In this document: in pieces, positions 11,185 to 15,290 of the stretch
Position numbering within the stretch: position 1 is the stretch's first letter
Layout: every line of letters begins with the position of its first letter
NCBI GenBank assembly: GCA_020718845.1
Contig: DYRG01000023.1
Location: forward strand, 1 to 42,504
Length of the DNA: 42,504 bases
Reading direction: 5' to 3'
Source: Thiomargarita sp.
GTDB lineage: Bacteria > Pseudomonadota > Gammaproteobacteria > Beggiatoales > Beggiatoaceae
The notes under the pieces: model-generated
The model's input: the letters and a program-made list of their open reading frames with translations, nothing else
What the model was told of the DNA's origin: nothing
Database searches by the model: none
Made by a program: the position numbers and the translations under genes

Positions 11185-11688
11185 ATGAGTTGTTTTGTAG
11201 CAGTTTTAATGGGATCAGATTCAGATTTTCCATTAATGCAAGGTACGCTTGATACCTTGAAAACATTACAAATCCCATTTGAAGTTAAAATCACTTCTGC
11301 GCATCGCACGCCCGCCACCACCCATGCGTATGTGAAAGACGCGGAACAACGGGGTTGCGCGGTGTTTATTGCGGCAGCTGGAATGGCAGCGCATTTGGCA
11401 GGAACAATCGCGGGTTTGACTTTAAAGCCTGTGATTGGCGTGCCAATTGACGCAGGTCCGTTGCAAGGCATCGATGCGCTGTTATCAACCGTTCAAATGC
11501 CAGCGGGGATTCCTGTGGCGTGTGTGGCGATCGGGAAAGCGGGCGCGAAAAATGCCGCCTATTTGGCAGCGCAAATTTTAGCGACCAGCGATGCCGATTT
11601 AGCAAAACGTTTGCTTGCCGAACGATCCACCCAAAGTGACGCGGTGATCGCCAAAGATCGTGATTTACAAGCAAAATTAAACGCATGA
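11185..11688 (+). CDS. purE: N5-carboxyaminoimidazole ribonucleotide mutase PurE
   Basis: Purine biosynthesis: converts N5-CAIR to CAIR. The 167-residue protein is full length for class I PurE, with MGSDSDFPLM (9-18), ITSAHRTP (36-43), AAAGMAAHLAG, GVPIDAGPLQGIDALLSTVQMP and VACVAIGKAGAKNAA all in order. GAGGAG lies upstream of the ATG. PurK, which makes the substrate and is normally the next gene, is not present; instead the gene overlaps tsaC by 4 bases (ATGA). PurK must therefore be elsewhere if this pathway is used. Confidence 0.95.
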   Translation: MSCFVAVLMGSDSDFPLMQGTLDTLKTLQIPFEVKITSAHRTPATTHAYVKDAEQRGCAVFIAAAGMAAHLAGTIAGLTLKPVIGVPIDAGPLQGIDALLSTVQMPAGIPVACVAIGKAGAKNAAYLAAQILATSDADLAKRLLAERSTQSDAVIAKDRDLQAKLNA

Positions 11689-12294: not shown

Positions 12295-12312
12295 TTGTCA
12301 TGAAATTGTCAT
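12295..12312 (+). promoter_or_regulatory. Pho box upstream of pstS
   Basis: Two identical TTGTCAT heptamers at 12295-12301 and 12306-12312 repeat with an 11-base period (4-base spacer GAAA), the geometry of a PhoB binding unit (TGTCA direct repeats replacing the -35). A weak -10 (GATACT, 12323-12328) follows at the expected distance. The position, 51 bases before pstS, fits phosphate-starvation control. Confidence 0.75.
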
Positions 12313-12362: not shown

Positions 12363-13325
12363 ATGAAGAAGTTTTTAGGTGCAATTAGTGTGTTAGCGGC
12401 GAGCATAAATTTTTCTGCGCACGCAGTAGAACTTGATGCAAAATTGCCTGTGTATGAGAAAACAACAGGCGTGTCGGGCAATTTATCTAGCGTTGGTTCG
12501 GATACATTAGCGAATTTAATGACGTTGTGGGCGGAAGAATTCAAACGCAATTATCCGAATGTAAATATCCAAATTCAAGCGGCAGGTTCTTCTACTGCAC
12601 CACCCGCTTTAACTGAAGGAACTAGCAACGTCGGTCCTATGAGCCGTAAAATGAAAGACGGTGAAAAAGAAGCCTTTGAAAAGAAATATGGCTACAAACC
12701 CACTGAAATCAAAGTTGCTATCGATGCATTAGCTGTTTATGTTCACAAAGATAATCCCATTGAAGGTTTAACTATTGAACAAGTCGATGCAATCTTTTCT
12801 TCAACACGCAAATGTGGAGGAAAAGAAGACGTTGTGAAATGGGGACAGTTGGGCTTAACGGGTGATTGGGCTGAAAAAACAGTGCAACTCTATGGTCGTA
12901 ATTCGGTTTCTGGAACTTATGGTTATTTTAAAGAAAATGCTTTATGTAAAGGCGACTTTAAAAACAATGTTAATGAACAACCGGGGTCTGCATCAGTTGT
13001 TCAATCTGTAACGGCTTCAGAAAATGGAATTGGTTATTCTGGATTAGGCTACCGCACTTCTGGTGTAAAAACCGTTCCTTTAGCAAAAAAAGCGGGCGAA
13101 GAATTCGTTGAAGCAAATGAAGAAAATTCACTCTCTGGTAAGTTTCCTTTATCACGTTTTCTTTTATTATATGTGAACAAAGCACCCAACAAACCATTAG
13201 CACCTTTAGAATATGAATTTGTTAAAATGGTTCTTTCTAAAGTAGGTCAAGAAGTGGTTGTAAAAGATGGTTATGTTCCTTTAAATTCAGGATTAGTTGA
13301 AAAAGAACTCGCCAAGTTAAAATAA
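12363..13325 (+). CDS. pstS: Phosphate-binding periplasmic protein, PstS family
   Basis: High-affinity phosphate receptor for the Pst ABC importer. The 320-residue protein has a signal peptide (1-21, ending NFSAHA) and the PstS pattern [20 protein letters not shown] (39-58, phosphate-binding loop), [23 protein letters not shown] and [18 protein letters not shown], where the SVSGTYG loop contacts phosphate in this family. It belongs to the longer PstS-like group whose mature N-terminus has extra residues before the SVGSDT loop. The pstCAB genes do not follow: a terminator lies 16 bases after the stop. GAGGGAG gives the ribosome site. Confidence 0.9.
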
Positions 13326-13341: not shown

Positions 13342-13378
13342 AAAACCTATGAGGTATCAAAGCCTTGTAGGTTTTTTT
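13342..13378. terminator. Bidirectional terminator after pstS
   Basis: AAAACCTATGAGG (13342-13354) and CCTTGTAGGTTTT (13363-13375) pair over 13 positions, two of them G-U, around an 8-base loop and are followed by a T run. The A-run on the left makes it usable also for the minus-strand small ORF at 13383-13448. Confidence 0.75.
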
Positions 13379-13382
13379 ATGC

Positions 13383-13448
13383 TTAAAGCACTAAAGAAAA
13401 AACAAGCAAAATTGAAAGAACTAAAATAATCAATGCACTGGTTTTCAT
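13383..13448 (-). CDS. Putative 21-residue hydrophobic membrane peptide
   Basis: Minus-strand ATG at 13448 is preceded by a perfect AAGGAG at 9-base spacing, and the frame encodes 21 residues: M-K-T-S-A followed by an uninterrupted run of Ile, Leu, Val, Ser and Phe (LIILVLSILLVFSLVL). A bidirectional hairpin terminator follows the stop within a few bases. A strong ribosome site, a membrane-spanning peptide and a terminator packed into 110 bases argue for a real small gene. Such a peptide resembles type I toxin peptides (Ibs, Hok or Fst-like in general character) or small membrane subunits, but no family is recognised. No antisense promoter was identified. Confidence 0.45.
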   Translation of the reverse strand: MKTSALIILVLSILLVFSLVL

Positions 13449-13806
13449 GGTTGACATCTCCTTACTCAAAGTATTTTAAATAAGTTAATATCAACAATAA
13501 TGCCAAATCATAACTGATTAATTTTAAAAGATTTTAACCATCTTTATCATTCCAATCCGTCAAATTTTTGGCAAATCACCTCGCATCGTTAAAAAAATGA
13601 CAGTCACAAATAAATTGAAATAAACTTTTCTTAGTAAATTAGTTAATTTTTAATCATCATAGTTTAAAGACAAAATCTATAGTTTCTTAAACAAAATTAA
13701 ATAACTGGTAAGATTTGATTTTTGTGAACTGCTTTAAAATTTTAATGCAAACGGAATAAAGAAACGTTAAAATAGAACTTTTAAATCCAAATAGGAGAGT
13801 ATTAAG
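13449..13806. other. Long AT-rich intergenic stretch
   Basis: Between the small-peptide gene and the secreted-protein gene at 13807 lie about 358 bases. They must carry the promoters of both. TAAAAT at 13768-13773 is a plausible -10 for the plus-strand gene, lacking a good -35. I found no hairpin, tRNA, repeat or convincing ORF. Confidence 0.4.
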
Positions 13807-14697
13807 ATGTTGAAAGTTATGAGTAAAGTTTGGTTAGTTTGTTGGCTATTGATTGCGCAAACGATTGTTTTTGCTGCGGATCGGGCGATTTTATATCCAC
13901 CCACACCCGAAGGTAAATTACAAGAAATTGCTGCAAATATCCAAAATACTAATACCCCAAAAGTGGCGAGTGAAGCTATTCCGCAACCCATTGATTATTT
14001 TGTAAGAATTGCGCCGCGTCAATATGTTTTATCGGCGGATAATAAATTGCTCCCCAATGCGATTTTGGGAACAAAACCTTATGTATTTATGGCAACTCCA
14101 GAAGGTATATATGGAAAGCAATTGCTCGATATTTATTTGGATATTGGTTATGAAGCAGAAGATATTATTCGTTGGCAACGTGATGTTGAAATGGTTGCAA
14201 TCATTTTCAAATATGCACCACCCATTGCATTATCTAATGTCACAGATGGCAAACTTCCTGATAATTGGCAACAATTTATCTATTCACCAACATGGGATAA
14301 TATTTTTGCGATCTTCCCTAAATTAGCGGCTGATGCTCCCATTCAAGCGGATAAGAAAGGTGAATTTATGCCGACACAATTGTTCTTTAGAAGTGACGCT
14401 GAAAAACAATTAGTCTTAGGATTTCCAGAAGCGGGCAAACAACGTTTGAAAAATGTTGAGTACAACACTTTAAAAACCATTGGTGGATCAGATTGGGTTT
14501 ATCGTGATTTGTTAGAGAAAAAACTAAGCATTTTTGAGCATTTCAGAGGCACTGGAAGAACCTTAAATGAAGTGATTGATCCGCGTGGAGAACACCATTT
14601 GTCGGGTATTTTGGAGTTTGTTGCTCCAAATGCAAACTTAAATACTTTACCTGAAGTTGCAGTCGTTTCTTTAGGTAAATTAGTGATTTCTAACTAA
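13807..14697 (+). CDS. Secreted protein of unknown function
   Basis: A 296-residue protein not assigned to a family. The signal peptide (MLKVMSKVWLVCWLLIAQTI, cleaved after VFA at residue 23) directs it to the periplasm or outside. The mature part is mixed alpha/beta by composition, without cysteines, repeats or membrane segments, and includes a Pro-rich start (ILYPPTPEGKLQE) and a motif KPYVFMATPEGIYGKQLLDIYLD. TAGGAGAG precedes the ATG. It is followed by a hairpin and another secreted unknown, and preceded by pstS, so three exported proteins stand in a row, although each appears to have its own transcription signals. Confidence 0.75.
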   Translation: MLKVMSKVWLVCWLLIAQTIVFAADRAILYPPTPEGKLQEIAANIQNTNTPKVASEAIPQPIDYFVRIAPRQYVLSADNKLLPNAILGTKPYVFMATPEGIYGKQLLDIYLDIGYEAEDIIRWQRDVEMVAIIFKYAPPIALSNVTDGKLPDNWQQFIYSPTWDNIFAIFPKLAADAPIQADKKGEFMPTQLFFRSDAEKQLVLGFPEAGKQRLKNVEYNTLKTIGGSDWVYRDLLEKKLSIFEHFRGTGRTLNEVIDPRGEHHLSGILEFVAPNANLNTLPEVAVVSLGKLVISN

Positions 14698-14828: not shown

Positions 14829-15290
14829 ATGAAAATTCATTCTATTTGTTTAATATCTGCATTATCATTAGTTGGTGCAAGCGTTCAAGCTGCAGCACCC
14901 GAAGGTTGGGATAAATCATGGTCTGATTGTTCAAAAAAATATGACGACGAAGAACAAAAATGTGGAGATGGTATAAAAAAACTTTTTGGAGCAAAATCAG
15001 ATTCCAAAATTGCTGTAAAGCAACTGGGAACTTGCATGGATAATGCTCAAGAAACCTTCAATAAGTGTATGCATGTAGGGATAGATTCAGTCAAATCAAA
15101 AGATGGTAAGCCACTTAGTGAAGCAGAAAAGAAAAATAGTTTAGCTTTATTGGCTAAAGTTGGTGCTGCACTTAACAAATGTGAAGCAACAACAATGGCT
15201 TGTTGGGACAAAGCTAAAGACGAAAAATCCCATGATGAGTGTTTCAAAGCACTTGACAAATGTACCGACGAAGCTCAAAAAACTAAATAA
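14829..15290 (+). CDS. Small secreted cysteine-rich helical protein
   Basis: A 153-residue exported protein with signal peptide 1-21 (ending ASVQA). The mature part holds eight cysteines in four regular pairs: C34-x10-C45, C69-x10-C80, C118-x6-C125 and C138-x6-C145. The intervening sequence is strongly helical and rich in Lys, Asp, Glu and Ala. This arrangement suggests helical hairpins stapled by disulfides, or possibly metal sites, in the periplasm; it is analogous to but not the same as twin CX9C proteins. I do not know a named family for it. TTGGAG lies upstream of the ATG. It converges on recN with only 6 bases between the stops. Confidence 0.75.
   Translation: MKIHSICLISALSLVGASVQAAAPEGWDKSWSDCSKKYDDEEQKCGDGIKKLFGAKSDSKIAVKQLGTCMDNAQETFNKCMHVGIDSVKSKDGKPLSEAEKKNSLALLAKVGAALNKCEATTMACWDKAKDEKSHDECFKALDKCTDEAQKTK

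Follow-up and report, generated by a model that had tools for sequence, protein, structure and literature searches.

The window analysed here, i.e., the whole stretch of 42,504 nucleotides of the Thiomargarita sp. contig DYRG01000023.1, contains a 481-nt intergenic region in which a 21-codon open reading frame with a perfect Shine-Dalgarno (SD) sequence lies on the minus strand, tail to tail with a gene for a PstS-family phosphate-binding protein and with a terminator hairpin between the two (Table 1). The first-pass annotation of this DNA had proposed just such a frame, and its strand, length, and ribosome-binding site are all borne out by our analysis. The same annotation had spoken of a compact unit; the frame and the SD sequence of this unit stand, and what had been overlooked is a leader hairpin in which the SD sequence is buried. 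On the other side of the intergenic region lies a divergent gene (13807-14697, plus strand) for which neither Pfam (E <= 0.001) nor NCBIfam (E <= 1) gives a match, and 16 pattern matches found for it in the genome_contigs set yielded no relative confirmed by tblastn. Its start and that of the frame at 14829-15290 (plus strand) look exported-like by eye, and both genes lack a Pfam or NCBIfam match. Neither a tRNA nor an Rfam family at gathering score is found in the window as a whole.

Table 1. Features at the peptide locus, in window coordinates.
Feature	Position	Strand	Details
pstS (PstS-family phosphate-binding protein)	12363..13325	+	TIGR02136, 283 bits, cut-off 207; convergent
Terminator hairpin	13342..13375	.	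between convergent pstS (+) and peptide gene (-); strong on +, weaker on -
Peptide ORF	13383..13448	-	21 aa, MKTSALIILVLSILLVFSLVL*; ATG at 13448 end, TAA stop
Shine-Dalgarno AAGGAG	13458..13463	-	perfect; spacer to ATG of 9 nt
Leader hairpin core	13445..13500	-	23 bp, 5 G-U; extended fold 13425-13520
Two weak overlapping promoter-like sites	13521..13574	-	TTGCCA-17-AATGAT 13574-13546; ATGATA-18-TAAAAT 13550-13521

The peptide reads as one hydrophobic helix with a single lysine near its N-terminus, since 16 of its 21 residues are hydrophobic and its hydropathy averages 2.49, with 3.28 for the best 17-residue stretch. The hydrophobic run from A5 to L21 covers 17 residues, is interrupted solely by two serines, and has no cleavage region. 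Helix formation and membrane insertion are predicted from this hydropathy, by which the peptide would have the single hydrophobic membrane helix that is a trait of type I toxins. The stem of the terminator begins 7 nt past the stop codon.

Such a combination of frame and ribosome-binding site is not expected by chance. When the 481-nt intergenic region was shuffled with preserved dinucleotides, 11 of 3000 shuffles yielded an ATG-initiated frame of 15-60 aa that followed a perfect AAGGAG at a distance of 5-11 nt, and none (0/3000) yielded one with a mean hydropathy of at least 1.5. Across the whole genome, AAGGAG followed after 5-11 nt by ATGAAA occurs at 38 sites compared to a single site for the reversed control pattern. 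We inspected 30 of these 38 sites and found that 27 open frames of at least 80 aa, the remainder being the peptide locus and two 14-codon frames. AAGGAG with ATGAAA is therefore a sign of genuine gene starts here, given the ratio of 38 to 1 and the long frames behind 27 of the 29 other inspected sites. A looser scan for intergenic frames of 14-50 aa with an SD sequence of at least 4 bases and a stretch of 15 residues averaging a hydropathy of at least 2 covered 842,504 bases (28% of the genome, window included) and returned five short hydrophobic frames. The peptide ORF comes first among these in SD length (6 versus 4 bases), in hydropathy (3.34 for the best 15 residues, followed by 2.57), and also in leader folding. 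Another short intergenic frame of the same genome, MKRVMNFIILSAVVVFSLTACCC (L139, 10442-10513, minus strand), resembles a tiny lipoprotein.

The RNA upstream of the peptide is predicted to fold into a hairpin whose A-U/G-U-rich stem takes up four of the six SD bases, namely the initial AAG and the final G, and leaves the middle G and A in a two-by-two internal loop. On the minus strand, the 81-nt stretch at 13430-13510 folds with -24.0 kcal/mol (z -5.2, 0 of 200 shuffles as good) versus -7.5 kcal/mol (z +0.2) on the plus strand. We compared this leader to 352 other gene starts in 442.5 kb, defined as the first ATG of frames of at least 100 aa and scored with 60 shuffles each, and its z of -5.9 was the lowest among the 353 starts, followed by the start at locus L140 (-5.3) and a third one at -3.5. 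With 1000 shuffles the two leading values became -5.1 and -4.9, so that our leader is ahead of the L140 start by little and of the remaining starts by much. Two gene starts have a lower raw folding energy than the leader, but their z values are only -0.9 and -1.6. The L140 start itself, near 11506 on the minus strand of that locus (reverse-complement offset 8494), belongs to a 970-aa frame with a leader z of -4.9. Strand-asymmetric folds of this size are rare, not unique, as 10 of 10,415 overlapping intergenic segments (70 kb) at 7 separate places, the leader included, match or exceed its energy difference between strands. All five G-U pairs of the core carry the U on the 5' arm, and the plus strand would consequently have A-C mismatches at these positions. 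This orientation favours the minus strand and suggests a selected RNA structure; taken alone, it would arise by chance one time in 32 and counts as supporting evidence only. A search of both strands of the organism's own genome with the leader model found the peptide locus as sole match and no second copy.

We modelled the transcript in nine versions that combine three assumed starts with three 3' ends. In each of them, four of six SD bases stayed paired from 20 to 60 °C, and the calculated cost of opening the SD sequence fell from 9.7 kcal/mol at 37 °C to 5.8 kcal/mol at 60 °C. The start codon pairs within the core, though this pairing depends on the assumed transcript ends: at 37 °C the unpaired probability over the nine versions is 0.08-0.93 for its A and U and 0.10 to 0.14 for its G, and in six of the nine the first base is unpaired with a probability of at least 0.5 or nearly so (0.18 to 0.83 overall). 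In these models the start codon itself is thus not firmly closed. A sequestered ribosome-binding site, which is common but not universal among type I toxin mRNAs, is hence part of the predicted structure of this message.

The terminator had been described as bidirectional, a claim that holds well for one strand and poorly for the other. On the plus strand it forms a 14-pair stem of -17.1 kcal/mol (z -4.7), and the terminator scan lists this strand only; on the minus strand it reaches -11.1 kcal/mol with a z of -1.9, and 11 of 200 shuffles fold as well. The stronger plus-strand fold indicates a terminator that is adapted to pstS and that the peptide gene can also use, i.e., one that mainly serves the convergent gene. 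Hairpins of the same AACCT...AGGTT form are also present at the loci of some relatives, so the terminator looks ordinary. AAACCT...AGGTTT hairpins recur in several contigs of one related genome (G022, e.g., near position 1500 of locus L032) as either a shared terminator form or a small repeat. Promoter-like sites are about as frequent in the region as in shuffled sequence (4 found versus 3.6 expected). The 3' end of the pstS transcript would overlap the last ~43 nt of the presumed peptide message and pair with it (z -3.7) because it is encoded on the opposite strand. Upstream of pstS, 51-68 bases before the gene, lies a Pho-box-like sequence (12295-12312, plus strand, TTGTCATGAAATTGTCAT) with 2 mismatches to the consensus. 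A scan of the whole window with up to 3 mismatches gave this 1 match compared to an average of 2.7 in shuffles, so only its position speaks for the site. Pho-box control of the peptide was discarded on the same numbers, given that the single match precedes pstS.

Type I toxin genes are paired with antisense RNAs, and the first-pass annotation had suggested a type I toxin or a small membrane regulator. A compact gene for a small membrane peptide is supported by our analysis, but the type I label is putative, as neither a local antisense RNA nor a family match was found. The promoter scan found no plus-strand site between 13250 and the ORF that would read over it, and a relaxed scan run without a control listed six plus-strand sites that are all located at 13451 or beyond and read away from the ORF. 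One of these (13451-13477) has a perfect TTGACA, a 15-base spacer, and TATTTT and lies across the SD sequence on the opposite strand; as a lead only, this TTGACA could drive an RNA that is antisense to the 5' leader and directed away from the ORF. Three stretches of the divergent strand considered as a source of an antisense partner pair with the message no better than shuffles do (duplex z of 0.2, 1.5, and -0.1). The peptide locus has no match in Rfam at gathering score (21 sub-threshold Rfam matches), Pfam, PADLOC, or PHROGs. Membership in the type I toxin-antitoxin systems is therefore putative, while the anatomy as predicted fits their mode of working.

Relatives were sought in 95 genomes of the same family and class, none of which besides the window's own belongs to the same genus; a 21-residue query is a weak test at this distance, and absence from other genera does not refute the gene. 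A DNA search scoring at most 8 candidates per genome returned, besides the locus itself, only matches of up to 49 bases (51 of the 95 genomes at E <= 0.1), and the peptide search gave one other match, in G050 (E 0.97), within a 158-aa open frame. Among 42 family genomes, a search for a ribosome-binding site followed by an MKTSA-like start found 10 sites, one of them the window's own. Of the nine others, eight head frames of at least 97 aa, in some cases extending past the end of the locus, and at least two of these eight look exported; the ninth (L095) is the start of a non-hydrophobic frame of 31 aa. The back-translated pattern matched three stretches in genome_contigs and one in viral_contigs, all opening frames of 86 to 422 aa, and plasmids, phages, PDB, PHROGs, Pfam, and PADLOC gave no match to the peptide. 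The leader model found no relative in the other 41 family genomes, with at most 99 candidates scored in each and under stricter filters that lose weak matches; its weak matches in G028 (E 0.04) and G022 (E 0.06) were dismissed because they are located where long open frames run. A PstS match is present in 52 other genomes, and synteny was sampled for 29 of these as loci with flanks of up to 1.5 kb; none of the six neighbouring genes used as queries had a significant match there. The best peptide likeness among them, a 24-aa ORF at L027 (40% over 20 residues, E 0.6, score 38 versus 89 for the self match), was set aside since it lies upstream of pstS on the same strand and the arrangement thus differs. 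Titles and opening lines of abstracts on toxin-antitoxin systems of Beggiatoa mention nothing that relates to the peptide locus.

Known systems offer partial parallels. In many type I toxin mRNAs the ribosome-binding site is sequestered in a tight structure that requires processing or other elements (PMC4147584), and hairpins sequestering the SD sequence have been reported for the aapA3 mRNA (PMC6733600). The peptide locus shares with tisB/IstR-1, bsrG/SR4, and aapA/IsoA a short one-helix hydrophobic peptide, a short message, and a structured SD region (PMC4147584, PMC6733600), but differs from all three in that neither an antisense RNA nor a sequence relation was found and toxin action is putative. 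Closure of the SD sequence also differs, being predicted here from one local leader hairpin in contrast to the 5'-3' long-distance interaction of full-length aapA3. The convergent pstS transcript would recall the 3' overlap of the BsrG/SR4 type with its ~43 nt; unlike SR4, this convergent RNA is a protein-coding mRNA that ends in the shared terminator, and a regulatory role for it is hypothetical. Closest in size and make-up is Ibs/Sib, with 19 residues for the hydrophobic IbsC compared to 21 here, and IbsC toxicity is kept at 15 residues with at least 10 hydrophobic ones (PMC8309996). The Sib RNA spans the entire ibs frame (PMC4147584), but at the peptide locus we found neither an Rfam match at gathering score nor an antisense promoter, and no further copy of the leader in the genome. 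We consider an Ibs assignment less likely given that the locus is absent from the matches of the Ibs_toxin model (PF13956) up to an E of 10, a threshold at which the sole match listed in the genome lies on contig C85 (11.3 bits versus a cut-off of 27); one of 14 control genomes exceeds this cut-off.

The foremost competing explanation, unlikely in our judgement, is a benign or regulatory small membrane protein, e.g., a partner of a transporter or sensor, that is controlled by the leader hairpin and has no toxic role. Its anatomy would be equal to that of a toxin-like peptide, and small proteins with a single helix often act as subunits or modulators in bacteria. Residues 1-16 also resemble the MetS-like NSS subunit (NCBIfam NF033493; 16.3 bits, E 0.0058), and 0 of 9 composition shuffles match this model, so the likeness is not due to composition alone. 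However, the score is below the cut-off of 25, the peptide has 21 residues compared to the 30 positions of the model, a genome rated 99.97% complete gave 0 SNF matches at E <= 0.01 and thus no NSS transporter, and MKTSALII also heads an exported-looking protein in the family (L103), on which grounds we rejected a MetS subunit. An SD sequence buried this deeply is, moreover, unusual among the 352 gene starts sampled. That the frame is instead a remnant, i.e., a truncated signal peptide left beside the pstS terminator after the loss of an exported protein, is improbable. Many of the 30 inspected AAGGAG-ATGAAA starts do head proteins that read like signal-peptide carriers, and MKTSALII (L103) and MKTSALV (L098) start exported-looking proteins in a relative. 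Yet the run from A5 to L21 does not look like a signal peptide with its processing site, no gene body is present in the 7 nt between stop codon and terminator stem, and a lost gene leaves the strand-specific leader hairpin unexplained.

A minus-strand small RNA or an antisense RNA to pstS with an incidental ORF would account for the strongly structured leader, and transcripts passing the weak minus-strand terminator could run into pstS. We rate this as quite improbable, however, because a perfect SD sequence at good spacing from a 21-codon hydrophobic frame would then be unexpected, as the shuffles (0/3000) indicate. An RNA thermometer that controls a membrane peptide is suggested by the pairing of the SD sequence in a stem rich in A-U and G-U pairs with an internal loop, but the opening with rising temperature that a thermometer would need does not occur in the model, which keeps four of six SD bases closed even at 60 °C; this makes the idea very unlikely. 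An untranscribed stretch with SD sequence, ORF, and inverted repeat by accident would agree with the lack of conservation found among relatives and of a good promoter. It is scarcely credible given the shuffling result, a leader z of -5.2, the lowest z of 353 starts, and the first rank among five ORFs in the genome. Overall, we consider the MetS, Ibs, signal-peptide remnant, and thermometer readings less likely than the one that we prefer.

Our preferred reading, with a probability of roughly 0.45, is a conditionally translated one-helix inner-membrane peptide whose stand-alone gene is silenced after transcription and works like a type I toxin mRNA. Its computed parts are the ORF, the perfect SD sequence, and the strand-specific leader hairpin over four of six SD bases. 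Against it stand the failure to find relatives in 41 other family genomes, an antisense RNA, or promoter sites above shuffle level as well as the weak minus-strand terminator. The minus strand would be transcribed from a promoter near 13520-13575 into a full-length message that would be poorly translated because opening its SD sequence costs ~10 kcal/mol. A trigger such as cleavage of the long stem by RNase III or otherwise, a trans-acting RNA, or an upstream waiting ribosome might then open the SD sequence, upon which the peptide would insert into the inner membrane such that its lysine end faces inward, and large amounts of it could disturb the membrane or slow growth. Toxin-like action of the peptide falls slightly short of an even chance in our estimate. 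A more specific version appears improbable to us: an orphan, lineage-specific toxin-like peptide that is kept in check solely by the hairpin of its own leader, has no cognate antisense RNA, and is opened by stem cleavage, to which the convergent pstS message may add control by phosphate state.

The locus is thus probably a real, translationally locked micropeptide gene that is toxin-like in build and whose function is putative. Peptides of this length are too short for ordinary gene callers, and homology searches find little in them to work with. A leader hairpin that locks the SD sequence on one strand is a second, independent signal by which real micropeptide genes can be picked in genomes without close relatives, and it turns a bare 21-codon frame of Thiomargarita into a testable regulated gene.
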